Made by a program: the position numbers and the translations under genes. Below are positions 4,715-47,629 of a stretch of 64,000 bases of DNA, piece by piece; position 1 is the first letter of the stretch, and each line of letters opens with the position of its first letter. Source of the DNA: Chryseobacterium salipaludis (lineage in GTDB: Bacteria; Bacteroidota; Bacteroidia; Flavobacteriales; Weeksellaceae); assembly GCF_022968825.1 (NCBI RefSeq), contig NZ_JALHKS010000001.1:372001-436000 (forward strand), given 5' to 3'. Under the pieces are notes generated by a model. It made no database searches. It was not told the origin of the DNA and worked only from the letters and a program-made list of their open reading frames with translations.

Positions 4715-4740
4715 GCAAAAGTTTTTATGGTTTGGTTTAT

Positions 4741-4780: not shown

Positions 4781-4789
4781 ATTTGTCAT

Positions 4790-15700: not shown

Positions 15701-16665
15701 AGAAAACTTTAAATAACGATGGCGGCATGGGTGTCATGGAGTTTCAGGAAGAGCCCGGTACCCTTGTGAAATCATCGGCCGAAGTAGTAAATGGCGAGTT
15801 CACCGTGGAGTTTTATATGCCCAAAGACATTAACTATACCGATGGTGACGGACGGATTTTGCTGTACGCAGATAATAAAAAGTTTGATGTTTTCACCAAT
15901 AAAGTTCAAAAAATCGGCGGTATCAATCCAAACGGAATTGATGACAATGAACCACCCAAGGTGAAGCTCTACATGAATAACACCAATTTTGCCGATGGTG
16001 GTATTACGGACCAAAACCCTACCCTGCTCGCCTGTGTGAGCGACAATACCGGAATTAATTCGACCGGCGCCGGTATCGGACACGATATTACGGTGGTACT
16101 TGATGGGAAAATCATCGATACAACTGTGCTCAATGATTTCTACTTTTCCGGAGATAATAACGGTTGCCTTAATCCTTCTTTAAAAGACTATCAGAAAGGC
16201 GCTGTTTCTTATCCGTTCCGCAACCTGAGCCCCGGCGAACACCAGCTGAGCTTTAAAGTATGGGACATCAATAATAATTCAACCACTGCTACGTTAAACT
16301 TTATAGTTCAGGACGAAGCTGACCGGAAACTGGTCTTAAACAGACTGCTGAACTGGCCGAATCCGTTCACCAGCAAAACATACGTTCATTTTGAACATAA
16401 TTGTGATGATATGCTGGATGTGCATGTGCAAATCTTTACCATCACCGGGAAACTGGTTCGCACACTGAATACCACGGTGACTGCGGAACCTTTTTTCCAA
16501 GGGTACCGTACACCGCGCACTGCAATTGAATGGGATGGCACCGATGATTTTGGTGATACCGTCGGGAAAGGAACTTATATTTTTAAGGTTTTTGCCCGCA
16601 GCCAGAATCAGGACAAATGCCCGGGCAGTGCTACGGCAGTGGAAAAAATGGTTTTACTTAAATAA
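12787..16665 (+). CDS. porU: Type IX secretion system C-terminal signal peptidase PorU
   Basis: 1292 residues. Start set at ATG 12787; a TTG one codon earlier is less likely. Signal peptide (LLTLAFFCSICSFILAQ), a long N-terminal beta-rich region, then the gingipain-like C25 cysteine peptidase domain (about 545-910). I see the catalytic pair as His780 (YFGHGG) and Cys818 (STITCEFT). The C-terminal 95 residues (NWPNPFTSKTYVHFEH to GTYIFKVFARS) are a FlgD-Ig/CTD-like domain. PorU sits on the outer face of the outer membrane, removes the CTD of cargo and joins them to A-LPS. It is followed 27 bases later by porV, its membrane anchor. Confidence 0.95.
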   Translation: MKRLLTLAFFCSICSFILAQKITIDWKGTTVVDYGSSQVTLPHFSNAGFAYENHSVVIRVTQPYTGSLKTVSNLVWEAVSPSALYDLNAQFLPEDEITDIAVNKNPFTGAHTTSILVNTFRKENGKVYRLSSFTITDQSTARGLAEQIPAPLGTTDNPLKTGTFYKIKVDKSGIFKITSKFLRDNGINPANINPQNFRIYGNGGLMLPEHNLEPRFGGLQEMAIQINDEAATTWTENTFALFYAQGPHGFHVFDKNSPGRRKQDFRSDKPDNFINIYDDFAYYFINFDLGPGKRFPEAADIAGGPLITRYDDFQFVNEEKYNLLKLGRIWTGDIIKPNQVQTFTTREPLQPTDEVKYRTRVIAFQSQGNKISIGFTGAETSSHASGNSAGYPFASPLKEGTVTGVRGNTLTFTYNPDTSANPTGNFYFDYAEVSYPQNLTFNGSQMSFRKFNLPLGNATFVLSNAGTAEQVWDVSDLTNAVRTKNNSGTAGVHQFNYQQTETFPNEFVAFRHQDAYAPQFVGRIDNQDLAGLSGIDYVMITQTEMLGQAQRLADYYKDQFSVAVVDVNKIYNEYSSGRKDLTAIRDFISQMHEKTPLKYVFLLGDTSFDFRGRIYPGSDIIPSYQSEESGSFSTSFVTDDYFVMTEPQTNGSTMISNQLPDIPIGRLPASNISEAKLLIDKTLAYYNALPGQSTPFGEWRMKLDFVVDDDKDAGTPFHETMEETLKAEFEQGTRSEYNVRKLYIDAFPAETAAGGQRYPAVNQAISNDMGNTLYMFYFGHGGINGWAQERILTIDMIRNFRNYNNVYSRLPLVSTITCEFTLWDEPGTFSAGEQVIKSKEGGAATMITSSRAIGVGYGESFTKLFTTEIFRFTNNHDFDTLGNAFLEAKEKKGTQQDHLRVNFLGDPAMKLARPTQNIIINEIIADGQSNPDKLRALDFVTVKGIVTKADGSTDTDFTGRIAVNVFDKKVKKKTLNNDGGMGVMEFQEEPGTLVKSSAEVVNGEFTVEFYMPKDINYTDGDGRILLYADNKKFDVFTNKVQKIGGINPNGIDDNEPPKVKLYMNNTNFADGGITDQNPTLLACVSDNTGINSTGAGIGHDITVVLDGKIIDTTVLNDFYFSGDNNGCLNPSLKDYQKGAVSYPFRNLSPGEHQLSFKVWDINNNSTTATLNFIVQDEADRKLVLNRLLNWPNPFTSKTYVHFEHNCDDMLDVHVQIFTITGKLVRTLNTTVTAEPFFQGYRTPRTAIEWDGTDDFGDTVGKGTYIFKVFARSQNQDKCPGSATAVEKMVLLK

Positions 16666-16692
16666 CAAACAACGATAAAAAAACTTTACTTT

Positions 16693-17823
16693 ATGGCAAT
16701 TACAAAAAAGCTCCTGTTGGGCCTGGGAATCGGGATGGGCGTTGCAGCACAGGCGCAGGTAGGCGACATTCAGCCTGTTCTTACCGGTGCTCCTTTCCTG
16801 CGTATTTCACCGGATGCCCGCGCAGGTGGAATGGGTGATCAGGGGGTAGCAACTACATCTGATGCATTCTCCCAGTTCTGGAACGCAGCGAAATATCCGT
16901 TCAGCAAAACAACTTCCGCCATCGGACTGAATTACACACCTTACATGGGTAAGGTAACCAATGATGTGTTCCTGCTTTACGGTGCGTACCATCAGTTTCT
17001 TGGTGATGAGGAGCGTTCCACCATTTCTGCGAGTATCTATTACTTCAATATGGGTTCTGTGGACCTGACAAAATTAGTAGGTTCCGAAGTAGTTACGGAA
17101 GGTACTGCCAAGCCAAACGAATTTTCAATCGACGTGGCGTATGGTCTGAAATTATCGGATTACTACTCCATGGCGGTTACCGGCCGATTTATCCGTTCCG
17201 ATTTGTCCGGCGGATTCAATTCAGATAACACTTTGAAAGCAGCAAATTCCTTTGCCGTAGATGTTTCGGGATATTTCCAGTCCGAAAAACACACTTCCTT
17301 CGGTGATTACGAAGGCCGCGCGCGTGGAGGTTTCGCAGTTCAAAATCTGGGGCCAAGGCTTGACTATACCGGCGATGATGAATCCCGCTCCTACCTGCCG
17401 ACCATGGCGAGAATCGGTGCGGGATATGACCTTTTCATTGATGACCTGAACCGCGTGGGCGTAAACCTGGAAGCTTCCAAACTGCTTGTAGCCGGACCGG
17501 ATGCTTCCGGAGACGTTCCGAATGTGGGCGTGATTGAAGGAATCGGAAAATCATTCAGCAATAAAAAAAGCTTGATGTTCAGCGGCGCGCTTGAATATGA
17601 GTATGATAATGCCTTCGCGGTGCGTGGTGGTTATTTTTATGAAAGTCCTGAGCAAGGTGCCAGACAATACGCTACCTTGGGCGTTGGTCTGAAATATCAG
17701 TCTTTTGGGCTGGATATGTCTTACCTGATCAACACGTCCAAATTAAATTCAGCATTGGATAACACACTTCGTTTCGGGCTGACCTGGAATATTGGTGAGG
17801 AATCTTCCAACGCAGACTATTAA
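16693..17823 (+). CDS. porV: Type IX secretion outer-membrane shuttle protein PorV (LptO)
   Basis: 376 residues. Signal peptide (KKLLLGLGIGMGVAAQAQ), then FadL-like beta-barrel strands; diagnostic N-terminal region GAPFLRISPDARAGGMGDQGVATTSDAFSQFWN is highly conserved in PorV, and DMSYL near the end fits the final strands. In the outer membrane it binds cargo leaving the Sov translocon and carries it to PorU. Operon partner of porU. A clear terminator ends the unit. Confidence 0.96.
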   Translation: MAITKKLLLGLGIGMGVAAQAQVGDIQPVLTGAPFLRISPDARAGGMGDQGVATTSDAFSQFWNAAKYPFSKTTSAIGLNYTPYMGKVTNDVFLLYGAYHQFLGDEERSTISASIYYFNMGSVDLTKLVGSEVVTEGTAKPNEFSIDVAYGLKLSDYYSMAVTGRFIRSDLSGGFNSDNTLKAANSFAVDVSGYFQSEKHTSFGDYEGRARGGFAVQNLGPRLDYTGDDESRSYLPTMARIGAGYDLFIDDLNRVGVNLEASKLLVAGPDASGDVPNVGVIEGIGKSFSNKKSLMFSGALEYEYDNAFAVRGGYFYESPEQGARQYATLGVGLKYQSFGLDMSYLINTSKLNSALDNTLRFGLTWNIGEESSNADY

Positions 17824-33732: not shown

Positions 33733-34605
33733 ATGGCTTCAGGATTTTTTGCAGTACTGGATGATATCGCTGCACTGATGGACGACGTGGCTGTTTCCTC
33801 GAAAATCGCCACGCGGCAAACAGCAGGTATTCTGGGAGATGACCTGGCGGTGAACGCGGAAAAAGCCACAGGGTTTCTGGCCTCGCGTGAACTGCCGGTA
33901 CTGTGGGCGATCACCAAAGGTTCTTTTTTAAATAAACTGATTATTATTCCGCTGGCTTTTATTCTGCAGGCGATCTACGCGCCGGCAATACAAATTGTTC
34001 TTATTCTGGGTGGGTTATACCTCGCTTATGAAGGGATGGAAAAAATTGTGGAAGCCATTTTCCACCGGGCAGAAAAAGCCGAAGAAGTGGAAGAAGAACT
34101 TATCGGCGCCGATGCAGCCACCATTGAAAAAAGCAAAGTGAAATCGGCGATTGCCACGGATTTTATTTTATCGCTGGAGATTGTGATTATCGCCTTAGGG
34201 TCCGTATTGCATCAAAGCCTGATTACCCAGATTGTAACGGTGGCCATCGTCGCCATTCTTGCTACAGTCGGCGTCTATGGCATTGTGGCCCTTATTGTCC
34301 GGATGGATGATGCAGGACGCCACCTGATTCGCAAGTCAAAAAACAAAGGATTTTTCACCTCGCTGGGCACGTTACTGGTGAAGGCATTGCCGGTCGTCAT
34401 AAAAACACTTGGAATTGTGGGAACCATCGCCCTGCTACTGGTTTCGGGCGGCATCTTTGAGCATAATATTCCCGCTGTTCATCACTGGCTGCCGGAAGTA
34501 CCGGGAATGCTGAAGCAGGCAATTTTGGGAATCTTAGCGGGACTGGCCATGGTACTGATTATAACGGTATTTAAAAAAGTAAAAAACAGTTTTGCAAAAC
34601 AATAA
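33733..34605 (+). CDS. DUF808 family inner-membrane protein (YedI-like)
   Basis: 290 residues. Typical start ASGFFAVLDDIAALMDDVAV, then ATRQTAGILGDDLAVNAEKATGF, a family hallmark. Hydrophobic segments near 75-110, 145-195, 215-245 and 262-285. The function of the family is not established. Single gene, divergent from purM, ended by a terminator. Confidence 0.92.
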   Translation: MASGFFAVLDDIAALMDDVAVSSKIATRQTAGILGDDLAVNAEKATGFLASRELPVLWAITKGSFLNKLIIIPLAFILQAIYAPAIQIVLILGGLYLAYEGMEKIVEAIFHRAEKAEEVEEELIGADAATIEKSKVKSAIATDFILSLEIVIIALGSVLHQSLITQIVTVAIVAILATVGVYGIVALIVRMDDAGRHLIRKSKNKGFFTSLGTLLVKALPVVIKTLGIVGTIALLLVSGGIFEHNIPAVHHWLPEVPGMLKQAILGILAGLAMVLIITVFKKVKNSFAKQ

Positions 34606-34633
34606 CATCCTGAACTTTTACATTTAAATAAGA

Positions 34634-34661
34634 AAGGCTGCCTTGTTTCCAAGACAGCCTT
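34634..34661. terminator. Terminator between DUF808 and M16 genes
   Basis: AAGGCTG/CAGCCTT outer stem (34634-34640 with 34655-34661) extended by CTTG/CAAG with small bulges; T-rich sequence follows on both strands between convergent genes. Confidence 0.8.
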
Positions 34662-34685
34662 CCTTTTCACTTTTACTTATTTATA

Positions 34686-37619
34686 TTAATATCCGAAGAT
34701 TTCTTTCAAGCTTAATTTGCGGTAAGCACCAAGCTTTTGCAGATCTGCTTTGGACAGATTTTTCTCGGACGCTACCACAGAATACGTGTACGGTCTAACG
34801 GCAATATTCTTTTTATAGAACTCATTCAGTTCTGCGAGTGTAATCGTACCTGCTTTTTCGTACACCTTACGGCGGATATCATAATTGATGCCCAGATCGC
34901 GTGCGGCGAGGTAATCAAAGATGATATCATCCTGAGTGATACGCTCATTCTCAATATCCTGCAGGGTCTGACTTTTTGCCAGCGCCAGGTTTTCCGGGTA
35001 TTGTGGGAACGTGGTGAGCAATTCGTTCATCGCTTTTGAGGCTTCGGGGAATTTATCTGCCTGAGAACCCACATAAGCGGTCACGAAATAATGGTCGTTC
35101 TTTTTCTTTGGTGTCACAAACACCGCATATGTACTATATGCCAGCGCTTTACTTTCGCGAATCGTCTGGTTAACAATGGTACCCATACCACCGCCGAAAT
35201 AATTATTAAATACAGTTACTTCGGGCTGCAGGTCCGGATTAAATGTTCCGGCTGTGCGGGTCCACTGGGTTTCAGACTGCACCATATCATAATCTGCAAA
35301 AAGCACTTCAGCGGTTTTCGGAGTTTGCTGCCTGAACACTTTTGGTTCCGGCGAAGTGGCAAATCTGGACGGTACTTTGTGCATTTTCTTCAGACTTTTC
35401 TGAAGTTTCGCCAAAGGCTCCGGCCCATAATACAATACCGATTGCTGATAGCTGTTAAGGCTTTTTATAATGGAAACCAGCTCTTCCGCGGTTACAGCCT
35501 GCAGTTGTTCATCGGTGAAGGTATAGTTGAACTTATTCTCCGGGCCGTACATGGAGTAGTTAATCAGGCCCTGCATGATGGCACCTTTATTCTTTTTCAG
35601 GTCGCCGCGGGATTTCATCATGCGTGCCTTTAAAGATTGCAAAGCTTCAGCATCGGGCTTTGCATTGCGCACCAGGTCTTCATATAAAGCCACCGCTTTG
35701 GTGAAATTCTCCTGCAAACCTTCGATGGTAACCAGGGTAAAATCTTCGCCGGTGAAAATGCTGAAACTGCCCGCAATATCGTAAAACTCTTTCGAGATTT
35801 GTTCCGCAGACTTTTTGTTCGTGCCCAGGAACTGCAGATATTTCGCGGCAAGGTCCAGTTTCAGGTTGTTATTCTTGCCGATATCATAACGGTAGCGCAG
35901 GCGGAATAACTGGTTTGTGGTATTAGGTACATACAGAATTTCTGCTTTGCCTAAGGTACTGTGCTTAATATCTTTATCATAATCCAGGAACAAAGGCTCA
36001 ATCTTAGTGGACGGCATTTCCTCAATCATTTTTACAAAAGCACTTTGCTTATCAGCATTGGTTTCTACCGGTGTGATGGCCGGTTTTTCAATTTTAGCCA
36101 TTGCCGGACTTTCGCCCTGTCTTTTATAGACCGCTACATAATTATTTTTAAAATAACGGTTCGCGAAGTCCACTACCTGCTGTTTGGTAATTTTAGACAT
36201 GGTTTCAGTAGCCGCAATCTGGTCGCGCCAATCGAGTTCGCTGGTGAACGCTTCCATCAGAGCATTGGCCCGCGTGCTGTAATGCTCGCTTTCTGTGATT
36301 TCGCTTTTCTTGATATTATTGACGATGGAGGTAATCAGGCTTTCATCAAAATCACCTGCTTTCAGTTTAGCAATCTGCTCCATCAGGAGCGCCTGTACCT
36401 GTTCCAGTGTCTGGCCCTCTGTGGGTGCGGCCTGAACGGTGAAAATTCCGTAGTCAATCAGTGGCATCACACTCACGGAGGCCCACAGTACTTTCTGTTT
36501 TTTAACCAGGTTTAAATCCAATAATCCTGCGCGGCCATTGCTTAAAATTTCGCCCACGAGTTCGGCAATCAGAATGTCTTTGTCCTTATTATTTGGCAAA
36601 CGGTAGCCGAGCATCAGTTTCTCCGCATTCGGGCCGGTTACTTCTTTAATGATCGGCTGCTCCAGTGCTTTTTCGGGTGTAAATTTATACGGCTGCACCG
36701 GCTTGTTTTTCAGGAAAGAAAAATCGCGATCGATATCAGCAATGACCTGATCGGGATTAAAATCACCCGATAAAATCAGTCCGATATTGTTCGGCACGTA
36801 GTAGTTATTAAAATATTTGCGGATTTCCAGCAACGATGGATTCTTCAGGTGTTCCACCACACCGATGGTGGTCTGCTGCCCGTAATTATGATTCTGGAAC
36901 ATATTTTCCAGCATGGTTTCGAAAGCACGCGCGCCATCATTATCTAGATTGCGGTTCTTCTCTTCGTACACGGCTTCCAGCTCCGTATGGAAAATACGGA
37001 ATACCGGATTGCGCAATCTTTCTGCCTGCACGGCCAGGTATTTATTTAATGAATTGCCGGGAACATCATCGGTGTACACCGTTTCCTCAAAACTGGTCCA
37101 GGCATTGGTGCCTTGTGCGCCCATGGAGGACATTAATTTATCATACTCATTCGCAATGGCATATTTGGAAGCTACGCCGGAGATAGAATCAATCTGATGA
37201 TAAATCTGCTTGCGGCGGCTTTCATCTTTGGTTTTGTTGTACTGCTCGTACAGCGCATCGATTTTATCGAGTTCCGGTTTTTCTTTTGCCCAGTTTAGAG
37301 ATCCGTATTTATCTGTTCCTTTAAACATCAGGTGCTCCAGATAGTGCGCAAGACCGGTGTGCGTGGACGGGTCGGTTTTGCTTCCCGCTTTCACGGCGAC
37401 GAATGCCTGCACGCGCGGATCTTTTTTGGTGGGACTCAGGATGACGGTCAGGCCGTTTTTTAAAGTATAAAAGCGCGCCTGCATCGGGTCATTGGTCACA
37501 TACCGATACGTGTAGCCGCCGGAAGTTGCTGTTTTCCATTCATGCTGCTGCTGCGCGCTGAGCTGCATAAAAAAGCCCACTAACAGCGACAACATGCTGA
37601 ATTTTGAGATAAGTTTCAT
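34686..37619 (-). CDS. Secreted M16 family zinc metallopeptidase (paralogue 2)
   Basis: 977 residues with signal peptide (SMLSLLVGFFMQLSAQQ). Zinc motif HYLEH (about residue 90) with the third ligand in TELEAVYEE; second half-domain from about 540; ends SLKEIFGY. Its start codon directly follows the dsbD-like stop with no spacing, so the two are translated from one mRNA. Paralogous over its whole length with the M16 gene at 1799-4714. In this position it likely cleaves peptides brought in by the SusC/SusD pair upstream; that role is inferred from context. No sequence sign of inactivity: all zinc ligands are present. Confidence 0.94.
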   Translation of the reverse strand: MKLISKFSMLSLLVGFFMQLSAQQQHEWKTATSGGYTYRYVTNDPMQARFYTLKNGLTVILSPTKKDPRVQAFVAVKAGSKTDPSTHTGLAHYLEHLMFKGTDKYGSLNWAKEKPELDKIDALYEQYNKTKDESRRKQIYHQIDSISGVASKYAIANEYDKLMSSMGAQGTNAWTSFEETVYTDDVPGNSLNKYLAVQAERLRNPVFRIFHTELEAVYEEKNRNLDNDGARAFETMLENMFQNHNYGQQTTIGVVEHLKNPSLLEIRKYFNNYYVPNNIGLILSGDFNPDQVIADIDRDFSFLKNKPVQPYKFTPEKALEQPIIKEVTGPNAEKLMLGYRLPNNKDKDILIAELVGEILSNGRAGLLDLNLVKKQKVLWASVSVMPLIDYGIFTVQAAPTEGQTLEQVQALLMEQIAKLKAGDFDESLITSIVNNIKKSEITESEHYSTRANALMEAFTSELDWRDQIAATETMSKITKQQVVDFANRYFKNNYVAVYKRQGESPAMAKIEKPAITPVETNADKQSAFVKMIEEMPSTKIEPLFLDYDKDIKHSTLGKAEILYVPNTTNQLFRLRYRYDIGKNNNLKLDLAAKYLQFLGTNKKSAEQISKEFYDIAGSFSIFTGEDFTLVTIEGLQENFTKAVALYEDLVRNAKPDAEALQSLKARMMKSRGDLKKNKGAIMQGLINYSMYGPENKFNYTFTDEQLQAVTAEELVSIIKSLNSYQQSVLYYGPEPLAKLQKSLKKMHKVPSRFATSPEPKVFRQQTPKTAEVLFADYDMVQSETQWTRTAGTFNPDLQPEVTVFNNYFGGGMGTIVNQTIRESKALAYSTYAVFVTPKKKNDHYFVTAYVGSQADKFPEASKAMNELLTTFPQYPENLALAKSQTLQDIENERITQDDIIFDYLAARDLGINYDIRRKVYEKAGTITLAELNEFYKKNIAVRPYTYSVVASEKNLSKADLQKLGAYRKLSLKEIFGY

Positions 37620-39611
37620 TTATTTATTATAATTATTTTTAAAGTAATCCAAGCCGCATTGCAGGAAATTCCGGAAATCTTCTTTCGGCATATATCCGGA
37701 AACCGGCGTGTTGATCAACTGACCCTCCGGTGTTAGCAATACGTAGTGTGGCTGGGAATTATTATTGAAGTTAATCTGCTGGAACAAACTCCATTTGTCG
37801 CCGATGGATTTCATCTTCTTCAGTTTACCATTGCCCATGTCAATCATTTTCTGATCTGCTTCGGGCAGCGCTTCCTTATCATCCACATACAGAGAAGCGA
37901 GAATAAATTCGTTCTGAAGCAAAGGCAAAACATCCGGCTGGTTCCAGACGAATTCTTCCATCTTACGGCAGTTTTCGCAACCGTAGCCGGTGAAGTCGAT
38001 CAGGATCGGTTTGTTTTGTTTGGAAGCTTCGGCCAGCGCAGCATCAAAGTCATGTTTTGGCTCAAGTCCGAAGAGACCTTCATCTGCATCGTGGAAATAA
38101 CTCACATTTAGCGGCGGCAAAATACCGGAGAGCATCTGCAGCTTCGGCTTTTCAGAAGGGATAAGCCCCTGAATTAAATACACTAAAAATGCAACACTGA
38201 TCAAACCGAAAATTTTACGGCCGGTGCTGATTTTAGGTTTGCGGGCGTCATGCGGAAATCTGATTAATCCGAACAGATACAGCACCAACCCAATGGTGAT
38301 GATGATCCACAGAACGATAAACAATTCACGCTTCAGCAAGAAGGTTTTTGTAACCAGGTCTGCTTTTGATAAAAACTTCAGCGCCAGGCCCAGTTCGATA
38401 AATCCTAAAACTACTTTCACGGTATTCATCCAGCCGCCGGACTTCGGCAAAGACTGCAATGCCTGCGGGAACAGTGCTAACAAGCCAAAGACAATTGCCC
38501 AGGAAAAACCAAAGCCTGCCAGTGCAAAGGTCAGCAGCATGGGCACATCAGACGAACCCGTCACGGCGCTTCCCAGCAAACTGCCCAAAATAGGACCTGT
38601 ACAGGAAAAAGAAACGATGACCAGCGTGAGTGCCATGAAGAAAATACCAATCAGTCCGCCTGCTTCTTCCGCGCGGGAGGATTTATTGGCAATCGCGCTT
38701 GGCAGCGTAATATCATAATATCCGAAGAAGCTTCCCGCAAAGAACAGGAAGATAACAAAGAAGAAGATATTCAGCCAGACTGAGGTAGATATTTCATTAA
38801 ATATATTTCCGGCAATACCATCAATCAAATGGAAAGGCACACTCAGCAGAACGAAAATCAACAGGATAAAGAAACCATATAATAACGCATCTTTTTTCCC
38901 TTTTCCGTTGGCACCTTTATCGGCACTTTTCGTGAAGAAGGAGACTGTGAGCGGAATCATCGGGAAAACGCAAGGGGTGAGCAAAGCAATCAGTCCACCG
39001 ATAAAACCTAGCAGCAGGTAAGACCAGTAATTTTCAGAGCTTTCCTGTGCGGCAATTCCGCAGTCGGTGAGTGGTGAATCCACTTTCAGATTAGAAAGAC
39101 GCAGATCATCGCCGGTACCGGCATTTTCAGCGGCAGCAGCGGCAGCTTCAACGACCTGTCCGTTCTCAATTTTCTTCTGGAACACCAGTGTATTGGGCGC
39201 GAGACAGATTTTATCATCACAGGTCTGGTAATAAATTTCTGCCTCAACTTCAGTGACTTTGGACGGATCAGTGAGTTTAAATTTCTGAACAATATCCACC
39301 GTATTGGAATAATAGACAATACGTGCTTTGAAGGCTTCTGAATATTCATCTATCTTCTCACCGCGTTCTTCAACGCTGCCCACGAGTTCCACCCCGTCGC
39401 CGGAAACCGTAATTTCCGTTGGGATCCCGGAATCGGGCGGCAGGTCTTTGGAATAAATGTGCCAGCCATTGTCGATCTTGGCGTGAAATACAGCTTCATA
39501 AACATCGTCGCCCAGAGAATTGATTTTAAAATCTACCTTCACGGGATCCTTGACCTGCGCGGTAAACAGATAGCTTACCAAGGCCATAAAGATCAGGAGT
39601 AATTTCTTCAT
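37620..39611 (-). CDS. DsbD-like thiol:disulfide interchange protein
   Basis: 663 residues. Signal peptide, an N-terminal DsbD alpha-type domain with the redox pair in YYQTCDDKICLAP, eight membrane helices (about 195-490) with the buried Cys pair in LLTPCVFPM and SFSCTGPIL, then a C-terminal thioredoxin domain with GYGCENCRKMEEFVW (CxxC). It passes electrons from cytosolic thioredoxin through the membrane to periplasmic thiol proteins. The neighbouring TlpA-type lipoprotein is the natural electron acceptor (inference). Directly coupled to the M16 gene. Confidence 0.93.
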   Translation of the reverse strand: MKKLLLIFMALVSYLFTAQVKDPVKVDFKINSLGDDVYEAVFHAKIDNGWHIYSKDLPPDSGIPTEITVSGDGVELVGSVEERGEKIDEYSEAFKARIVYYSNTVDIVQKFKLTDPSKVTEVEAEIYYQTCDDKICLAPNTLVFQKKIENGQVVEAAAAAAENAGTGDDLRLSNLKVDSPLTDCGIAAQESSENYWSYLLLGFIGGLIALLTPCVFPMIPLTVSFFTKSADKGANGKGKKDALLYGFFILLIFVLLSVPFHLIDGIAGNIFNEISTSVWLNIFFFVIFLFFAGSFFGYYDITLPSAIANKSSRAEEAGGLIGIFFMALTLVIVSFSCTGPILGSLLGSAVTGSSDVPMLLTFALAGFGFSWAIVFGLLALFPQALQSLPKSGGWMNTVKVVLGFIELGLALKFLSKADLVTKTFLLKRELFIVLWIIITIGLVLYLFGLIRFPHDARKPKISTGRKIFGLISVAFLVYLIQGLIPSEKPKLQMLSGILPPLNVSYFHDADEGLFGLEPKHDFDAALAEASKQNKPILIDFTGYGCENCRKMEEFVWNQPDVLPLLQNEFILASLYVDDKEALPEADQKMIDMGNGKLKKMKSIGDKWSLFQQINFNNNSQPHYVLLTPEGQLINTPVSGYMPKEDFRNFLQCGLDYFKNNYNK

Positions 39612-39629
39612 TAGAGTAAAAATCTTGGA

Positions 39630-39712
39630 AATAAAAAACTGCCGGAAGAAGGAGCGGGTTACAGTGAAAAAAAGCGATATGAAGTCACCCGTATTCCTGC
39701 AGCCGGCAGTTT
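39630..39712 (-). terminator. Long-loop hairpin between the TlpA and DsbD genes
   Basis: Perfect 10-bp stem AAACTGCCGG/CCGGCAGTTT (39636-39645 with 39703-39712) followed by six T on the minus strand. The 57-nt loop holds an inner CGGGT/ACCCG stem. Works as a terminator by appearance, but may allow read-through since genes on both sides look functionally linked. Confidence 0.6.
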
Positions 39713-39724
39713 CGTTTTTATATG

Positions 39725-40879
39725 TTATTTAAGATGCTGAGACAGTGTGCGGTCCAGCGCGAACTCACGAAGTTCATCATTGGATGCCACGATGGTCCCG
39801 TTCTGATCAATCAGGTAAGAAGCAGGAATTCCCACGATACCGTATTTTGCTACTTCAGGGTTGCGGAACTCACCTTCCACCAGCACGTTTGGCCAGTTTT
39901 GTTTTTCCTCGTCCATTGCTTTCAGCCAGGCAGCTTCTTTGGAGTCCAGGGAAACGGAATAGATTTCCAGTCCTTTGTCCTTGTATTTGCCATAGGCTGC
40001 TTTCAGGTTCGGAATTTCACCACGGCACGGTCCGCACCAGCTGGCCCAGAATTCCAGGATGGTGTATTTATTTTTCGCTACCAGGTCTGATAGTTTGATT
40101 ACGTTTCCATCACGGTCTTTCCCGGAGATGTCCATATACTTATTTCCAACGGAAGCGTTTTTGGCGTTTTCTTCCATCTGCTGATATTCCTTCATCATTT
40201 TCTCGTAATACGTAATATAGCCGTTCTCCCCAGTTTCTTTTTTATATTTCTCCAGGTTCGCCAGCATTTTATCAGCGGTGTATTCGCGGTCGCTGTACAT
40301 GGTTGCTGCAATTGCTTTGGCGATGGCAGGATTGTTTCCCTCCATTACTTCCTTAAGGCTCGCATTTTTGATTTTAAACATTTTATCAGCCACTGTATTC
40401 ACGATTTTGCGGGCTTCTTCCACCTTCGCTTCGTCGTTCATGTCCAGGTTGGTGAAATGCTTTTTCATCAGTTCCTTACGCTCGGCATCCAGCTTTTGGT
40501 ATTCCGGATTATTCTCGTATTTATATACAAGCTCATGAATTTTACCCCCTTTGATATCAGTGGTTTTTTGTTTATCCTTTACATTGATCGTAATATCATC
40601 ATTTTCAAGAATGAAGGGAATATAGAGATTGGATTTTTCATGCAGAATTCCGGCTGGCACAATCTCTTTGGCTTTTCCTTTAAATACGAATTGCTTTTCT
40701 GCATTGGGTGCCGCACCCTGCATTTTTTCACCCTCGTAGTTTACCAGGTACAGAGAGTCTACCTGAATTTCGGCCGGCATTGTTACCGTTACCTGATAAT
40801 CTGATTTCTCCTTGTTACAGGACGCGAGTAGCAAAGCGACCAGCGACATAACAAGAAATACTCCTTTAAATTTATTCAT
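39725..40879 (-). CDS. TlpA-type thioredoxin lipoprotein with DUF4369 domain
   Basis: 384 residues. Lipoprotein signal LLLASC (Cys about 21), an N-terminal DUF4369 beta domain (about 28-125), a helical middle, and a C-terminal TlpA/redoxin domain with FWASWCGPCRGEIP (CxxC) and GIPASYLIDQNG (cis-Pro). Membrane-anchored periplasmic disulfide reductase. This domain pair is common beside SusC/SusD genes in Bacteroidota. Starts 31 bases after susD, so it is in that operon. Confidence 0.94.
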   Translation of the reverse strand: MNKFKGVFLVMSLVALLLASCNKEKSDYQVTVTMPAEIQVDSLYLVNYEGEKMQGAAPNAEKQFVFKGKAKEIVPAGILHEKSNLYIPFILENDDITINVKDKQKTTDIKGGKIHELVYKYENNPEYQKLDAERKELMKKHFTNLDMNDEAKVEEARKIVNTVADKMFKIKNASLKEVMEGNNPAIAKAIAATMYSDREYTADKMLANLEKYKKETGENGYITYYEKMMKEYQQMEENAKNASVGNKYMDISGKDRDGNVIKLSDLVAKNKYTILEFWASWCGPCRGEIPNLKAAYGKYKDKGLEIYSVSLDSKEAAWLKAMDEEKQNWPNVLVEGEFRNPEVAKYGIVGIPASYLIDQNGTIVASNDELREFALDRTLSQHLK

Positions 40880-40910
40880 TTTTTATTTTAAATTTCTGAT
40901 TGATAATTTT

Positions 40911-42305
40911 TTAATTCTGTGGCATGCTCGGGTTGAACTTCAGCACCTGCGCAGGAATAGGCAAAATGAGCTTGCCGCTGTTGGGTTCAGCTGTAATTTC
41001 CAACGGGTTATTTCCTACCACTTTGTGCACGGTTGTTTTCGCGTAAGCACTTTCCAGATTTTCACGTTTCAGGTCGAAAAGGCGTGTATTGGTATACACC
41101 ATTTCACGTCGGCGTTCCTCTAAGCAGAATTTCACCAGATCGGTCTGACCCGCGAAATCTCCCAGCGTAAGTTCCACGTTGCCATCCACGCGGTTATTGC
41201 GAAGTGTATTCAGCAAGGTTACGGCTGTCCCGAGATTGCCCAAACGCGCTTCGGCTTCTGCCAGCGTAATGTACATTTCCGGCACCGAAACGGAAGTGGA
41301 ACCTCGGTAATTGTAATCATAGGATCCCATCGTGTAGCGTACGCCAACCACCTGACCGTCTTCGGTTACCTCTCTCGGAATAAACTGCTCAGACAGACGC
41401 TTGTCATCAAAACCACTTTCTTCGAAAAGTGACACCATTTCATCATTCAGGAAACCGCTGCCGGGCAGCGCCATATAATGTTGTGTGTACTGCTCAGCAT
41501 ATTTCAGTGACAGGGAATAATTGCTGAAATCCGGCTGGGTATAATCTACCAGATCAGATTTTTCTTCCAGCGCCATTTCCGCATACTTTTTTGCATTAGC
41601 GTAGTCACTTTGATACAGATAGGTTCGCGCCATCAGGGCATAACCCGCACCCAATGTCGGCAGCAATTGAATCTGAGATTCCTCCGGCAGATATTTCACT
41701 GCTTCACCCAGATCGCTCAGGATTTGGTTATACACTCCTTCCACCGTTCCGCGGGACGGCAAAGTCTGGGTCACATCTGCCTGCAAAACCAGCGGAACAC
41801 CCGGATCAGAACCGGCTGTGGACTGATTGTACTGCTTGGCAAAGGTATTTACCAGAAATAGGTATTCATACGCGCGGCCGTAATACGCCTGTGCTTTCAC
41901 GCGCCGGCGTTTTTCTTCGGTATCTCCTACTTCAAAAGTAGCTTCATCAATTTCATTGATGATTTTGTTATAGGTATAAATATTCTTGTATCCGTCATTC
42001 CAGGCAGGATTGGGAACGGAAGAATCCGAAAAGCGGTAATTGCTCCAGGAATACAGCGCAAAATTGATGTTGCCGGTATTGTTGGTATCCCCTACTTCCT
42101 GAGAAGTCAGGAAGAAGTTATCATTGGTCAGGTGCAGAACCGTTTCATTTTTGGTACGGTGCGGCCCGTTGTCACCACCGATCAGCAGCAATTCATACTC
42201 CTTCACCGAGGTCGGGATCACATATCCTTTGGGTACTACGTCCAGGTAATCGCGGCAGGAAAAAAGCAGCAGCGAACCGGCGAGCAGAGTGAGATATTTT
42301 TTCAT
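40911..42305 (-). CDS. SusD/RagB family outer-membrane lipoprotein
   Basis: 464 residues, at the short end for the family. Signal LLLFSC, then CRDYLDVVPKGYVIPTSVKEYE, typical of the SusD_RagB N-terminus. TPR-like helices (AYYGRAYEYLFLVNTFAKQY; ALMARTYLYQSDYANAKKYAEMAL) and the C-terminal signature YITLAEAEARLGN, EERRREMVYTNTRLFDLKR. Acts as the lid of the SusC channel and binds substrate at the cell surface. The neighbours (TlpA, DsbD, M16 peptidase; no glycosidases) point to peptides, as for RagB. Confidence 0.94.
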   Translation of the reverse strand: MKKYLTLLAGSLLLFSCRDYLDVVPKGYVIPTSVKEYELLLIGGDNGPHRTKNETVLHLTNDNFFLTSQEVGDTNNTGNINFALYSWSNYRFSDSSVPNPAWNDGYKNIYTYNKIINEIDEATFEVGDTEEKRRRVKAQAYYGRAYEYLFLVNTFAKQYNQSTAGSDPGVPLVLQADVTQTLPSRGTVEGVYNQILSDLGEAVKYLPEESQIQLLPTLGAGYALMARTYLYQSDYANAKKYAEMALEEKSDLVDYTQPDFSNYSLSLKYAEQYTQHYMALPGSGFLNDEMVSLFEESGFDDKRLSEQFIPREVTEDGQVVGVRYTMGSYDYNYRGSTSVSVPEMYITLAEAEARLGNLGTAVTLLNTLRNNRVDGNVELTLGDFAGQTDLVKFCLEERRREMVYTNTRLFDLKRENLESAYAKTTVHKVVGNNPLEITAEPNSGKLILPIPAQVLKFNPSMPQN

Positions 42306-42326
42306 TGTCTTTTTAAAATTAATAGG

Positions 42327-45300
42327 TTAGAAAGTAACATTTAAACCAAGGCTCACCGTGCGCGGAATTTTGTAATAGCGCATTCCAAGGCCGTGAGATT
42401 CCGGATCAATTCCTTCTTTGTTTTTGGTCCAAAGTGCCAGGTTATTTCCGCGAAGGTTAACTGTGAACTCAGAGAAACCAAAGCTTTTGCTCATTTCCTG
42501 TGGAATGGTATAGCTCAGGATCACGTCTCTCAAACGAATGAAGTCACCATCCACGATATTCTTTGTAGAATATGCCACGTACGAGTACGGGAAGGTACTG
42601 TTCAGGCGCGGAACATCAGTAAAGGCTTCATCACCCGGCGCTGCCCAGGCGTTGGCTGCATCTTTATTGATCATCGCAATTTCATCCATTACAGACTCTC
42701 CGTTGTAGCTATCCTTCAGCAGGGAGAAGCCACCCTGATACACAAACATAAATGATAAACCGAATCCTTTATAGAACAGGTTATTGTTCAGGGAAGCGGT
42801 ATACTTCGGCAAGGTAGTTCCACCGGAAATCAGGTCGCTCTGCGCAAATCGCACACTGAAAGTATCATCATTCACGCGAACCAGTGAACCGTCTGCTTTA
42901 CGGATCAAACCGTACCCTTCGTCATCCAGGCCGGCATAATCCAGCACCAGAATAGAATTAGGTTCAAAGCCTTTCACATTCTGCACGCGGCCCAGCACGG
43001 TGCGCACTTCGGTATTATTGGTATAAGACTCCGTTACTTTTCCTTTGTTATAGCGGAAGTTGAATTGAGTATCCCAACGCAAGTTTTCCGTATCCACGTT
43101 GCGTGAAGTTAAAGACGCTTCATATCCGTTGTTAATGATAGAGGCCGTGTTCTTGAATACCGGTGAAGCTCCCAAAGTCGGATCCGCTTCGATAATCGAT
43201 AACAGGTCATGAGAATCTTTTCGGTAATAATCCAGGTTCAGGTTGAGACGCTTGTTTAATAAAGACAAGTCAGCTCCCACGTTCAGGATATCAGTACGTT
43301 CCCAGCGCAGGTCAGAGATTTTATAGTTCTCAATCTGCAGTCCCGGAATATAATTGGTGATAGAACCTTGCACGATACGGCCCACATCATAGGGTCCGTA
43401 CTTATTGGCAATGTTACCATTCACCCCATAAGAAGCACGCAGGTCAATGGTTTGCTTACCGTTTCCGGCAAACTCTTCATTCCCCAAACGCCATTTCGCA
43501 GCCACGGACCAGAATGGTTTGTACCGGTAGTTAGGATCCGTTCCGAAGAAGTTGGACTGATCAATACGCGCACTACCAGTCAGGATATATTTATTCTTAA
43601 AGGAATAATTCGCATTGGCATAGAAGGAAACAAAACGGTCATCAATGTCCACAAGTTCATCAAAGAAGCGAATACCTTCGATATATTCTCCCGGATTGTA
43701 CACAAAGAAAATAAGATCCTGAGAAGCCAGTTGCTTATTCACCGGCACGAAAGTATTGCTCGCTCGGTTGTACCCGAACTTATCTGTTACGGTGCTGGTC
43801 GTGTGCTGGCGCTGGACTTCAGAACCTGCAATGGCACTCAGATAGTGATCGCCGAAACGCTTGTCATAATCTGCCTGCAAACGAAGCAAATAGTTCGTCT
43901 GGTCGGTACGTGTCTCAATCATGCGGCCACCTTCCGGCAACAGCATTTCCTTCACCCCGCCGGTGTATTCCAGCATGGTGGTGGTATTGTTCAGCAAAGA
44001 GGCCATTTCCCAGGAATCACCATCAGCGATACGCCGGTTGGTGAAGCTGTTACGCATGAACTGTCCGCCGAAGTTCAGTTTCAGGTCATTGGTGATTTTA
44101 TAATTGAAAAGCCCTTGCACGCGGGAGGTCCAGGTATCTGTGGTGTTAGTATACTTTCCAAAGTCAGCAGCCGGACGATAGGTTTCATCATATAAACCCA
44201 AATCCTTCAAACGCTGAATTTCATACGGCTCCTTTCCACCAAAACTATATGTGGTGTCATAGTTGAAAGGTTTATACACAGCCAGTGCGGAAGCGTCCGG
44301 GCCATAGAAATTCTGGTAGGAGCTGATATCAAAAACACTGCTCAGATCATCCGGATTCACGTTGTAGAAGTCAATTGGTTTTGAATCTTCTTTCTGCAAA
44401 GAGAAATTCGTTTCCAGATCAAGGGTTAATCTTGGCGAAAGACGGGCTTCGGTAACAAAGTCGAAAATTCCTTTATTGTCTTCCGAACCATTAATGTTTC
44501 CAAACTGCTTGGTATAATTTAAGGACGTACGGTACTTAAATCCTTCCGTACCACCGGAGGCAGACAGGTTGTGCTGCGCAATCATCGGGGTCTGCAGATA
44601 CAGCTTACGGATATCATTGGTATTGTCGCGGGTACGAAGCAACGCCAGGCGCGCATTCAGTTCCGCTTCGGTGATACGCCCCTGCTGATAACTTGCATAC
44701 AATAAATACACTTCGTTCTTAGCATAAGCAAACATGTTTCCGAAGAAATTATACGGATCATTGAATTCACTTTCATAATCCGTGAGCAAACCACCGGACT
44801 CAATCACAGATCTTGGGTAAGCACTTTGGGCATCTACCAGTTGCGAAGAGTTTACGCGGTTCATGGCATATCCCAGATCAATTTTATCACTGATGGAATA
44901 ATTGGTTGTATAGCGGAACACCGTATCGCCTTTGCGGCCTTTCTTGGTAGAAATTACGATTACCCCGTTGCTGGACTTAGCACCATAGATCGAAGCAGAG
45001 GCCGCATCTTTCAGTAAAGTAATGCTTTCCACTTCATAAGGGTTAATGCTGCTGAGATCGCCATCATACTGGAAGCCATCCACTACAATCAGGGGCTTGG
45101 TATTTCCGGAAAGGGTGGCCACGCCACGCAGGTTAAACAATTTGGAGCCTGGATTTGAGGGATCAGAATATACCGTAAGTGCCGGCGTGAGTCCTTCCAG
45201 AGAAGAGACAATATCCGGATTTCCGCGGCGCTCGAAGTTCTGCATATTCACCGTGGTGTAGGAAGCAGCGGCGCGGTTCGGATCCACCTTCTGGTATCCA

Positions 45301-45890
45301 GTAATCAGTACGCCTTCAATGGCGGTTTCATTATCGCTTTCGGTAACGGCAAACTGTGGTTGCAGTGTCACCTCTACGGCGTTGCCGTCAACCGTTGCAT
45401 TTTCTGCATACACCCCATTGCTGATCTGCAGGCGGTCACCCAGTTTTGCCTGAATCGTGAAATTACCGCTTGCATCGGAGGTAGCAGTAGTTCCGCCGGT
45501 CAGGTTGGTAATCTTCGCATTGGCAATTCCCTGTTGTGCCGCATCGGAAACAGTACCGGTTACGGACATCGCTTCGATTTCGCTGGCGATAATCTGCTTA
45601 CCGATCACGGTAAATTTCAGACCGGTTTTGCGGGTCAGTTCGGCCAGGTAGGCCTCAATGTCGCCATTGTGGTCCTGCAGGCTGATGCGCGCATCGGCAT
45701 TCAGCAGTTCTTTTTTGTAAAAGATGCTGTAGCCGGTTTTTTGTTCCACCTTTTTAAATGCATTTTCGATCGTCATAGTCCGACTGCTGTCGGTGATTTG
45801 CGCCTGCGAGAGACCGAAAATCAAAAAACTGGCAGCAATTCCCAGTCGCACATTCGGGATGCGCGTTGGGCGGTACTTCGTTTTCTTCAT
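42327..45890 (-). CDS. SusC/RagA family TonB-dependent outer-membrane transporter with STN domain
   Basis: 1187 residues. Order: signal peptide (to about 30), STN secretin/TonB N-terminal domain (about 40-105, ENAFKKVEQKTGYSIFYKKE), carboxypeptidase-regulatory-like beta sandwich (about 112-180), plug with SusC signature ESITLLKDAASASIYGAK (about 285-320) and the 22-strand barrel. The STN domain is what contacts the FecR anti-sigma factor, so substrate binding outside can switch on the divergent ECF sigma gene product. Forms the import channel with SusD 21 bases downstream. Confidence 0.95.
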   Translation of the reverse strand: MKKTKYRPTRIPNVRLGIAASFLIFGLSQAQITDSSRTMTIENAFKKVEQKTGYSIFYKKELLNADARISLQDHNGDIEAYLAELTRKTGLKFTVIGKQIIASEIEAMSVTGTVSDAAQQGIANAKITNLTGGTTATSDASGNFTIQAKLGDRLQISNGVYAENATVDGNAVEVTLQPQFAVTESDNETAIEGVLITGYQKVDPNRAAASYTTVNMQNFERRGNPDIVSSLEGLTPALTVYSDPSNPGSKLFNLRGVATLSGNTKPLIVVDGFQYDGDLSSINPYEVESITLLKDAASASIYGAKSSNGVIVISTKKGRKGDTVFRYTTNYSISDKIDLGYAMNRVNSSQLVDAQSAYPRSVIESGGLLTDYESEFNDPYNFFGNMFAYAKNEVYLLYASYQQGRITEAELNARLALLRTRDNTNDIRKLYLQTPMIAQHNLSASGGTEGFKYRTSLNYTKQFGNINGSEDNKGIFDFVTEARLSPRLTLDLETNFSLQKEDSKPIDFYNVNPDDLSSVFDISSYQNFYGPDASALAVYKPFNYDTTYSFGGKEPYEIQRLKDLGLYDETYRPAADFGKYTNTTDTWTSRVQGLFNYKITNDLKLNFGGQFMRNSFTNRRIADGDSWEMASLLNNTTTMLEYTGGVKEMLLPEGGRMIETRTDQTNYLLRLQADYDKRFGDHYLSAIAGSEVQRQHTTSTVTDKFGYNRASNTFVPVNKQLASQDLIFFVYNPGEYIEGIRFFDELVDIDDRFVSFYANANYSFKNKYILTGSARIDQSNFFGTDPNYRYKPFWSVAAKWRLGNEEFAGNGKQTIDLRASYGVNGNIANKYGPYDVGRIVQGSITNYIPGLQIENYKISDLRWERTDILNVGADLSLLNKRLNLNLDYYRKDSHDLLSIIEADPTLGASPVFKNTASIINNGYEASLTSRNVDTENLRWDTQFNFRYNKGKVTESYTNNTEVRTVLGRVQNVKGFEPNSILVLDYAGLDDEGYGLIRKADGSLVRVNDDTFSVRFAQSDLISGGTTLPKYTASLNNNLFYKGFGLSFMFVYQGGFSLLKDSYNGESVMDEIAMINKDAANAWAAPGDEAFTDVPRLNSTFPYSYVAYSTKNIVDGDFIRLRDVILSYTIPQEMSKSFGFSEFTVNLRGNNLALWTKNKEGIDPESHGLGMRYYKIPRTVSLGLNVTF

Positions 45891-45910
45891 GTTTAATGGA
45901 TTGGTTTTTA

Positions 45911-46999
45911 TTAATTTTTAGAAAGAAGGATCAGCTTATGACCATCTTTCCGGATTTTGCAGTTGAGCAGCACTTCCAGGCTGTGGGTAATTTCGTCCAG
46001 ATTTTCAATTTTAAAGGTTCCGGAGAAATGGAAGTTTTCTACTTCCACGCGGTTGCGGATAATCTGCAGGCCGTAGACCCGTTCGATTTTTGTCAGCACT
46101 TCGTCGGTCGTATTATTATCAAAGGCGATTTCGCGGTGCAGCCAGTCCATATCCTGAACCGGACGCGCGGGCTGAACTACCGCTGTTTTTTCTTCAGGAA
46201 TAAAAGTCATCTTCTGGCCGGGCGTCAGCACCTTGGAAGTTCCGCTGTTTCCCTGCACAGCAATGCTGCCTTCCACGAGGTTCACATACGGCTGTCTTTC
46301 ATTCTTATAGGAAGATACATTGAACTTAGTTCCGAGTACTTTGGTGGTGAACTCATCCGTTTTCACATAAAAAGGATGCGCTTTATCCGAAGCCACATGA
46401 AAGAAAGCCTGCCCGGAAAGGCTGACTTCGCGCGGGCCTTTTTTGCCAAAGTCAGCATCAAAGGACAAGCGCGTACCAGCATTAAGCAAGATTTTAGAAC
46501 CATCGGAAAGAAGAACTTTCAGGTTTTTGCCGTTGGGTACGTGAACGGTCATTTCATTGGACGACGAATTCCGGAGCAACTCCAGCGTTCCTTTTTCCAC
46601 TTTGGCAAGCTGTACTTTATTTTTATCATCAATGCGTTGAGAAGTTTCCACATCTTGGAGCACGGTATAATTTCCATTAATACCTACACTGACAAATTCG
46701 TTGCTTGGCGCCTGTTTTTCGGGCAGACTCCATCTCCAGATTCCGGCCGCGGACAGTAACAGCAGCAGCACCGCCGCAATTCTAAGCAGCGGGCGAAGCG
46801 TCCGTAGTTTTCCGATCTTTTTTTCTTCTTCCTGATATGGTGTGGCCGCCGCCAGATAATTGGCTTTGGCGTAGGATTTAAAAAGCTCTTTATTTGCCGG
46901 GTTCTTCAGCCATTCGTTTAAGTTTTCACGCTGCCGGTCTGAAATTTCTCCCGTAAAATAACCGGTTATTATGCTGAAAATTTCCGGGTTATCATTCAT
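45911..46999 (-). CDS. FecR family anti-sigma factor
   Basis: 362 residues. Cytosolic N-terminal sigma-binding part (1-90), one membrane helix (LRIAAVLLLLLSAAGIWRW, about 92-110), periplasmic FecR domain with VLLSDGSKILLNAGTRLSF and AFFHVASDKAHPFYV, and a C-terminal DUF4974 domain (about 285-362) that contacts the STN domain of SusC-type transporters. Its sigma partner is encoded divergently, not upstream in the same operon as is usual. Confidence 0.94.
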   Translation of the reverse strand: MNDNPEIFSIITGYFTGEISDRQRENLNEWLKNPANKELFKSYAKANYLAAATPYQEEEKKIGKLRTLRPLLRIAAVLLLLLSAAGIWRWSLPEKQAPSNEFVSVGINGNYTVLQDVETSQRIDDKNKVQLAKVEKGTLELLRNSSSNEMTVHVPNGKNLKVLLSDGSKILLNAGTRLSFDADFGKKGPREVSLSGQAFFHVASDKAHPFYVKTDEFTTKVLGTKFNVSSYKNERQPYVNLVEGSIAVQGNSGTSKVLTPGQKMTFIPEEKTAVVQPARPVQDMDWLHREIAFDNNTTDEVLTKIERVYGLQIIRNRVEVENFHFSGTFKIENLDEITHSLEVLLNCKIRKDGHKLILLSKN

Positions 47000-47068
47000 A
47001 AGGTTTACTTTTGTTTAATGATATGATGCAGCCGTTTTGATAATCCCCTATCTTTTTTTGAAAAATTA

Positions 47069-47076
47069 TAATTTTG
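47069..47076 (+). promoter_or_regulatory. -7 box for the ECF sigma gene
   Basis: TAATTTTG, 19 bases before the proposed TTG start. The fecR promoter must lie in the same 96-base divergent region (47000-47095), but I see no TAnnTTTG for it, which fits control by an alternative sigma factor. Confidence 0.6.
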
Positions 47077-47095
47077 TCTTAAATTTTTATCCGCT

Positions 47096-47629
47096 TTGTT
47101 TGGCATAACCAACGATATTGCCCTTTTTAACTCGATAAAGAATAATTCAGAACCTGCGTTTAAGGTTGTTTATAATGAATACTTTGGGCAGTTGCAGCAA
47201 TTTATTTCGAGGATGAGCCAGGACCAGGATCTGGCCGAGGAAGTTGTGCAGCGCACGATGGTGAAAGTCTGGGAACAACGAGATAAAATTGTGCTGAAAA
47301 CATCGCTCAAGGCGTATCTTTATAAAATAGCCTACCACGAATACCTGATGTATCTGCGCAAAAAAAGCCGGTTTCCCGCCATTGAAGATGCCGCTATGGA
47401 AGCGATTGATGAAATAGAAGATGAACAGGAGAATCAGCTCCTGCTTGAAAAGATCCGGCAGGAGATTGATAAACTGCCGCCCAAGTGCCGCGAAGTTTTT
47501 ATCATGAGCAAAGTACGCGGAATGAAATACAAGGAAATCGCTGAAGAACTCGGCATCTCGACCAAGACGATTGAAAATCACATGACCAAAGCCGTGCGCA
47601 GCATCCGCGAGGCGCTTTCACAATCTTAG
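47096..47629 (+). CDS. ECF RNA polymerase sigma factor (FecI-like), TTG start
   Basis: 177 residues. Sigma region 2: DLAEEVVQRTMVKVWEQRD with preceding FIDRM-like core; region 4: LPPKCREVFIMSKVRGMKYKEIAEELGISTKTIENHM, a full HTH of the Bacteroidota SusC-linked ECF group. There is no ATG until well inside region 2, and TTG at 47096, 19 bases from a good promoter box, is the best start. It should direct transcription of the fecR-susC-susD operon when FecR is released. The last 4 bases overlap the end of the next gene on the other strand. Confidence 0.9.
   Translation: MFGITNDIALFNSIKNNSEPAFKVVYNEYFGQLQQFISRMSQDQDLAEEVVQRTMVKVWEQRDKIVLKTSLKAYLYKIAYHEYLMYLRKKSRFPAIEDAAMEAIDEIEDEQENQLLLEKIRQEIDKLPPKCREVFIMSKVRGMKYKEIAEELGISTKTIENHMTKAVRSIREALSQS

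Follow-up and report, generated by a model that had tools for sequence, protein, structure and literature searches.

The 64,000-nucleotide stretch of the Chryseobacterium salipaludis genome analysed here (the window, C1:372001–436000 of an assembly of 2.53 Mb in 22 contigs) contains a cassette of seven genes at positions 34686–47629. A divergent gene for an extracytoplasmic function (ECF) sigma factor is followed on the minus strand by fecR, susC, susD, tlpA, dsbD, and a gene for an M16 peptidase. All seven open reading frames (ORFs) are open over this range, and the gaps from fecR to the M16 gene are 20, 21, 31, 113, and 0 bases. The genes, coordinates, and gaps had been proposed in an initial annotation made from the sequence alone; all of them were confirmed, and Pfam and NCBIfam models support each family.

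The sigma factor (residing at 47096–47629, plus strand) matches TIGR02985 with 146.1 bits (cut-off 126.4); its ORF is in frame only with a TTG start, where TTGTTTGG is present in all 5 copies of the cassette (that of the window and 4 from the same genus, described below). The FecR anti-sigma/sensor protein (45911–46999, minus strand, as are all genes that follow) scored 59.1 bits against a cut-off of 24 for PF04773 and also matches PF16344 (FecR_C). The SusC/RagA outer-membrane TonB-dependent transporter (42327–45890) exceeds the cut-offs of TIGR04056 (517.8 versus 368.25) and of the signature TIGR04057 (48.1 versus 46.2). It had been described initially as an STN-containing SusC; the SusC assignment stands, whereas the N-terminal STN-like domain (PF07660, 25.0 bits, E-value 1.6e-5) scores under the curated cut-off of 28.4 and is therefore probable rather than certain. 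The adjoining SusD-like lipoprotein (40911–42305) carries PF14322 and PF07980, and its nearest solved fold is the SusD of entry 8ypt.

The TlpA-like thiol:disulfide oxidoreductase (39725–40879) combines PF00578 with DUF4369 (PF14289, 34.1 bits versus a cut-off of 25), and has a lipobox-like LASC21, recognised by eye, and WCGPC at residues 281–285. The cassette DsbD (37620–39611) comprises nDsbD, transmembrane (TM), and thioredoxin domains (PF11412, PF02683, and PF13899 [Thioredoxin_7], all above their cut-offs); the NCBIfam whole-protein DsbD model stays under its cut-off (130.9 versus 330). The M16 metallopeptidase (34686–37619) contains PF00675 (Peptidase_M16) and PF05193 (M16_C), has the zinc motif HYLEH (HxxEH) at residue 92, and begins with an N-terminus that resembles a signal peptide by eye; its catalytic motifs are intact and activity is predicted. 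A Pfam profile search across the seven genes revealed no carbohydrate-active domain and no metal transporter or ferredoxin-like gene.

Conservation and insertion site of the cassette

The search for relatives covered 60 genomes, including that of the window and 35 others of the same genus. An orthologue of the SusD (68–70% identity) was found in 4 of the 35 (G005, G023, G029, and G030), and the next SusD by E-value (1.1e-45, 31% identity) lies in another family. The order sigma, fecR, susC, susD, tlpA, dsbD, M16 is identical in all 4 genomes, with 58–80% identity between the proteins, and the linkage of the seven genes thus exceeds chance. The full gene set is present in records of Kaistella jeonii, K. 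antarctica, and K. gelatinilytica, so that genetics may be feasible in named strains.

In 3 relatives, the cassette is flanked by an MFS gene on one side and a pirin-like gene on the other, next to DUF808. The window copy has DUF808 and a SnoaL gene as its neighbours, and neither an MFS nor a pirin match was found within the window. The MFS and pirin genes are 251 and 158 bases apart in G006 and G031, which have no cassette, and 257 bases apart in G023, the native site of which is empty and the cassette of which is located elsewhere. These 3 loci were the clear cases among ten comparison regions (one more had a larger gap, and six had no copy of at least one marker gene), and the site is optional, being either filled or reduced to 158–257 bases. 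Two cassette-free genomes of the genus (L244 and L250) have a different SusC/SusD pair near DUF808, which makes the site a possible hot spot of insertion. Recent horizontal transfer is not supported by GC content, which is 45.9 for the window cassette and 45.9 and 45.5 for its flanks, and 34.2 versus 34.3, 36.2 versus 34.4, 36.3 versus 36.0, and 36.1 versus 34.3 for cassette and flanks in the relatives.

Regulatory features and the cassette copies of DsbD and M16

A promoter-like motif, TAGGGGATT-N11-TGCATCATA, is located upstream of fecR (47022–47050, minus strand) in all 5 copies. It has a single exact site in its own genome; the 27-base form has no other site there below 2 mismatches, and 3 mismatches yield 14 further sites versus 4 for a reversed control pattern. 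We infer that the motif is probably the sigma factor's own promoter. As a clade-wide signal it was rejected, with a looser form preceding only 8 of 98 FecR genes, 7 of them Kaistella entries, three of which are counted twice. The promoter consensus TAnnTTTG occurs twice in the stretch before the sigma gene, and none of the 10 stretches that precede dsbD and M16 contains it.

A terminator-like stem-loop with a T run lies between tlpA and dsbD (39612–39724, minus strand) and is kept in all 5 copies, across which its ten-pair stem shows one compensatory pair change and some G-T pairs. Its loop, which exceeds 40 bases and includes a conserved stretch of ATAT and a T run, is long for a plain terminator. 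The hairpin may be an attenuator or a terminator, and the tail of the operon (dsbD and M16) may consequently be expressed less or apart. This hairpin and the conserved motif before fecR are new observations. A strong terminator-like hairpin with a T run also closes the cassette (34600–34690, minus strand), and a comparable one follows the M16 gene in all 5 copies. Generic scans came out near chance for promoters (29 versus 22.1) and terminators (15 versus 14.9), and no Rfam element reached its gathering score in the cassette.

The dsbD of the cassette is an extra copy in all 5 genomes and the M16 gene is one in 4 of 5. A second DsbD was found in each of the 5 genomes; that of the window's own genome, on C2, is 70% identical to the cassette DsbD over 674 positions. 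The same genome encodes two further large M16 proteins, 67% and 40% identical to the cassette M16. A paralogue of 63–67% identity is among the matches listed for 21 of the 35 other genomes of the genus, and matches of 37–40% are listed for all 35 (split in G031). The window itself contains a second M16 peptidase at 1799–4789, which is 40% identical to the cassette enzyme. In trees, the five cassette DsbDs form one clade among the DsbDs of the genus (support 100/100; the deeper forks are unresolved), and the five cassette M16s form one clade beside the 63–67% paralogue (100/100).

The nDsbD domain hands electrons to partner proteins. Between the cassette DsbD and the other DsbD of one genome, identity is 52% in nDsbD, 88% in the TM domain, and 78% in the thioredoxin domain. 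The corresponding values are 71%, 93%, and 90% for the non-cassette DsbDs across the 5 genomes, and 77%, 91%, and 84% for the cassette DsbDs. Eight cysteines are common to the two sets, and all are kept in both. Because nDsbD has diverged between the copies yet is kept among the cassette copies, the pattern fits a partner that changed and was then conserved.

The redox relay is unlikely to serve the cassette's own proteins, since SusC, SusD, and the mature M16 have no pair of cysteines in the genus cassettes and could form no intramolecular bridge. Cysteine is absent from the SusC and M16 of the window, and its SusD has a single one apart from the lipid cysteine. Four further genus cassettes (L094–L097) have 0, 0, 1, and 0 cysteines in the mature M16 and 0, 0, 0, and 1 in SusC (signal peptides assigned by eye), and one each in SusD beside the lipid cysteine. 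Imported cargo and unrelated periplasmic proteins remain as candidate clients, of which the imported cargo is probably the one.

Relatives of the SusD and repeated assembly of the gene set

We scanned GTDB contigs with a SusD profile and analysed the best 80 of 301 loci, which were chosen without regard to their neighbours and include three Kaistella loci (L095–L097) and one locus, L184, that is probably the contig of L101. Genes were counted as downstream if they lay on the same strand with gaps of at most 400 bases and within at most 8 genes; the M16 and DsbD of L123 were counted by hand despite gaps of 451 and 409 bases. The controls were 20 distant-SusD loci from two Flavobacterium genomes, in 4 of which (L229, L235, L239, and L242) no gene was counted. 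Neighbour classes were taken from clusters, with Pfam run on the cluster representatives. Additional Pfam tallies, which list 25 families, cover 40 of the 80 loci (95 of 96 proteins) and the controls (57 of 58 proteins), one cut-off ORF being dropped from each set.

A TlpA-like gene lies downstream in 43 of 80 loci versus 1 of 20 controls (Fisher p 4e-5) and a peptidase-like gene in 70 of 80 versus 5 of 20 (Fisher p 1e-7); the two occur together in 35 loci. By contrast, neither M16 (7/80 versus 2/20) nor DsbD (7/80 versus 1/20) is enriched (Fisher p 1.0 for each). The association of the SusD clade is therefore with reductases and peptidases in general and not specifically with M16 or DsbD. The linkage of SusCD with DsbD and M16 that the initial annotation had emphasised thus holds among all 4 orthologues and is found in a minority of the wider clade, where M16 and DsbD are both downstream in 5 of 80 loci, three of them Kaistella. 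Only 2 loci have neither a TlpA nor a peptidase, namely L118, which has thioredoxin-like genes, and L154, which is at a contig end. A Met-zincin (DUF4953/DUF5117) is present in 35 of 80 loci and never together with TlpA. Sigma and fecR genes accompany 70 of the 78 loci with SusC in view. The control loci include an S9 peptidase in 3 of 20, and Pfam assigned 2 thioredoxin, 2 Peptidase_Mx1, and 2 S51 proteins among the 57 control proteins, classes that lie outside the cluster count.

In one locus (L181), a 983-residue ORF downstream of SusD fuses a TlpA-type region (residues 1–648) to an alpha/beta-hydrolase (residues 648–977) that is 45% identical to a separate gene in L124. In L101, L170, L176, L178, L184, and L193, Met-zincin SusCD loci are followed by proteins of the DUF3347 cluster and a gene clustering with multicopper oxidases, which hints at copper handling there.

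Sets of TlpA, M16, and DsbD also occur outside the genus, in L098 and L099 (G038), L102/L236 (G053), L123 (Winogradskyella), and L140 (Allomuricauda). A single origin of ten cassette DsbDs was rejected, at a cost of 409.7 log-likelihood units (AU p 1.1e-5). The tested group was picked after the tree was known and excluded L151, which the tree contains, and L133, which it does not; nine entries of the tree are long-branched, and the tool gave a warning of joins between them. The non-Kaistella cassette DsbDs are possibly one clade (support 94/82). The M16s of L098, L139, and L140 belong to another subfamily than the cassette M16, and those of L099, L102, L123, and L224 carry HFLEHMAFNGT. Along its entire length, the L099 M16 is of the PqqL type (3.6e-73); it also matches 6b03 (6.6e-45) and 6brs (3.1e-44), which we take to be FusC entries. 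The M16 loci are dispersed over a quickly built SusD tree, several branches of which are long. Since the cassette DsbDs do not group as a single clade and the M16s fall into different subfamilies, the set appears to have been assembled separately at least twice. The separate assembly, the conserved promoter-like motif, the cassette's own DsbD and M16 copies, and the lack of cysteine pairs in its SusC, SusD, and mature M16 agree with the earlier proposal of a coherent cassette, and the initial interpretation is supported in part. One branch of SusCD is thus tied to reductases and proteases, in some loci with dsbD and M16 copies of its own.

Known systems, proposed function, and alternatives

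The nearest solved SusC and SusD by sequence, and the nearest SusD by fold, are those of the BfUbb–ButCD entries 8ypt/8ypu, in which, according to the entry title, ButCD was solved with the protein ligand BfUbb of Bacteroides fragilis. The SusD of 8ypt is 25% identical to that of the window over the structural alignment, and all 9 solved matches of the window SusC are of the SusC/RagA type. No paper associated with 8ypt/8ypu was found, and none naming ButCD is among the matches listed. We rejected ButCD as the orthologue of the window pair, since the 8ypt SusD best matches another SusD of the window's genome (G000:C5:207107–208369; L103, L284). That other SusCD locus has no TlpA or peptidase counted downstream.

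RagAB of Porphyromonas gingivalis, a SusCD-type peptide transporter, is not nearest by sequence to the window pair, and the window locus differs from it in having FecR, the sigma factor, and a probable STN domain; we know of no TlpA–DsbD–M16 set linked to RagAB. In FecIRA cell-surface signalling, an ECF sigma factor and FecR act with a transporter carrying an STN domain. The window locus likewise has an ECF sigma factor and FecR, and its transporter has a probable STN domain; the differences are that the transporter is a SusCD pair and that processing genes lie downstream. In the DsbD–TlpA/CcmG pathway, an inner-membrane electron carrier feeds a membrane-anchored thioredoxin-fold protein. The key cysteines of this pathway are present in the cassette DsbD and TlpA; unlike in that pathway, the cassette DsbD is an extra copy with a diverged nDsbD, tied to an outer-membrane importer and a peptidase.

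In the Fus systems of Proteobacteria, a FusA-family TonB-dependent transporter is linked to a periplasmic M16 protease, and cargo is imported and then cleaved; for some systems, the authors propose that associated peroxidases bring about redox release (PMC6793856). The main text of that paper contains none of the words "thiol", "disulfide", and "SusD", and the S1 legend separates FusA from SusC. The window locus resembles Fus and PqqL–YddB in the genetic linkage of a TonB-dependent transporter to an M16 protease. It differs in that its transporter is of the SusC family (above cut-off) with a SusD, not of the FusA family, and that its M16 is nearest to 5euf (1.5e-27; PqqL 8.6e-11, 6brs 1.9e-6) and is not of the FusC/PqqL subfamily, to which the M16 of the sister cassette L099 does belong.

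No paper on a SusCD–TlpA–DsbD–M16 locus is among the matches listed in our searches of the open-access literature, which fits the initial description of the system as little-described; PMC10434189 holds several of the cassette terms but, in the part available, names scattered iron-regulated genes. The parts are of known kinds; their combination is absent from the open-access matches listed.

Because of this anatomy and the repeated assembly of the set, we favour, with about an even chance of being right, the reading that the cassette serves inducible import of a peptide or small protein, its reduction by DsbD and TlpA, and its cleavage by M16. The nature of the cargo, the action of the relay on it, the order of steps, and induction by cargo are what we infer. 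The SusCD pair would bind a peptide or small protein outside the cell and pass it through the outer membrane. Occupancy by cargo would be signalled from the STN-like domain to FecR and on to the ECF sigma factor, which would transcribe fecR and the downstream genes from its own promoter. Once the cargo is in the periplasm, its disulfides (or thiol–metal bonds) would be opened by the lipoprotein TlpA, which the dedicated DsbD would keep reduced by moving electrons across the inner membrane; the zinc-dependent M16 would then cleave the unfolded chain.

Several points weigh against this reading. The SusD of 8ypt has its best match in the window's genome in another SusD (38% identity), and the match of RagB to the window SusD (4.7e-15) is weaker than those of several SusDs annotated as sugar-binding. 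In addition to the missing enrichment of M16 and DsbD, one control locus, L236, belongs to a full TlpA, M16, and DsbD set; L118 has a rhamnosidase gene further downstream, L141 has a gene that clusters with sulfatases, and the alpha/beta-hydrolases included among the peptidase-like genes are possibly esterases. Most transcripts could stop at the hairpin that follows tlpA and so not reach dsbD and M16, and G029 carries the cassette M16 with none of the 63–67% paralogues listed for it. The cysteine argument is limited to the genus cassette, because low counts are not rare in general (no cysteine in 32 of 121 SusCs, at most two in 30 of 116 SusDs) and the M16s of the sister loci L099 and L119 have four.

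The same components could also serve piracy of a metal or cofactor in the manner of Fus, with the relay breaking metal–thiolate or Fe–S bonds of a metal-binding cargo and M16 freeing the metal. We regard this as unlikely, if the most serious of the alternatives. The PqqL-type M16 of L099, which matches 6b03/6brs, the DUF3347 proteins and multicopper oxidases of Met-zincin relatives in the SusD clade, and the pairing of transporter and M16 in Fus, with the redox release suggested for some systems (PMC6793856), speak for it; the window M16 is closer to 5euf than to PqqL or 6brs, and a metal transporter or ferredoxin-like gene is missing from the seven. Somewhat less probable still is a role in defence or opportunism, in which antimicrobial peptides or protein toxins of competitors would be taken up and disarmed by TlpA–DsbD and M16. 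BfUbb, to which the nearest solved SusCD is bound, is described in PMC5705921 as a secreted protein mediating intraspecies antagonism, and presence in 4 of 35 genomes is patchy, which fits such a role; feeding and defence predict identical anatomy.

That the locus is two adjoining units, a sigma–fecR–susCD–tlpA importer with a periplasmic redox and quality-control pair, dsbD–M16, beside it by chance, seems improbable. The 113-base gap, the hairpin kept in every copy, the DsbD and M16 paralogues elsewhere, and the lack of enrichment of M16 and DsbD near related SusDs would all suit such an arrangement. It is opposed by the gene order kept in 5 of 5 copies, by comparable sets that arose separately elsewhere, and by the absence of TAnnTTTG upstream of dsbD and M16. 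SusCD pairs are best known for glycans and mostly read as glycan importers, and among the close solved SusDs several carry a sugar-binding annotation; the rhamnosidase of L118 likewise recalls an ordinary polysaccharide utilisation locus. For the window we reject this explanation as very improbable. The initial annotation had found no glycosidases and thought a sugar locus unlikely, and both statements hold: the seven genes have no carbohydrate-active domain, and none appeared among the 25 listed of the 54 families that Pfam assigned to 95 neighbour genes, drawn from 40 of the 80 relatives, whereas the 57 control neighbour genes include GH30 (3), GH43 (2), and GH16 (2).

We suggest, tentatively and with more doubt than conviction, that the cassette belongs to a widespread Bacteroidota class of redox-coupled protein-import loci, a counterpart of Fus with reductive unfolding added. 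In such a class, an ECF-controlled SusCD would take up disulfide-closed peptides or small folded proteins and be served by a reductase relay and an exchangeable protease, with DsbD and M16 recruited separately at least twice. The exchangeable protease would be a Met-zincin where no reductase is present, and an S9/S15/S33-type hydrolase, an S41, trypsin-like, or M13 peptidase, or M16 where TlpA is. If import coupled to reduction is true, it would suggest, in testable form, how Bacteroidota exploit cysteine-bridged proteins such as keratin peptides, defence peptides, and bacteriocins, would explain the role of some TlpA/DUF4369 lipoproteins, and would make the cargo of a SusCD pair predictable from the neighbouring protease.

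Elsewhere in the window, a C25 peptidase gene is followed by PorV (12784–17823), which we take to be probably a type IX secretion pair.

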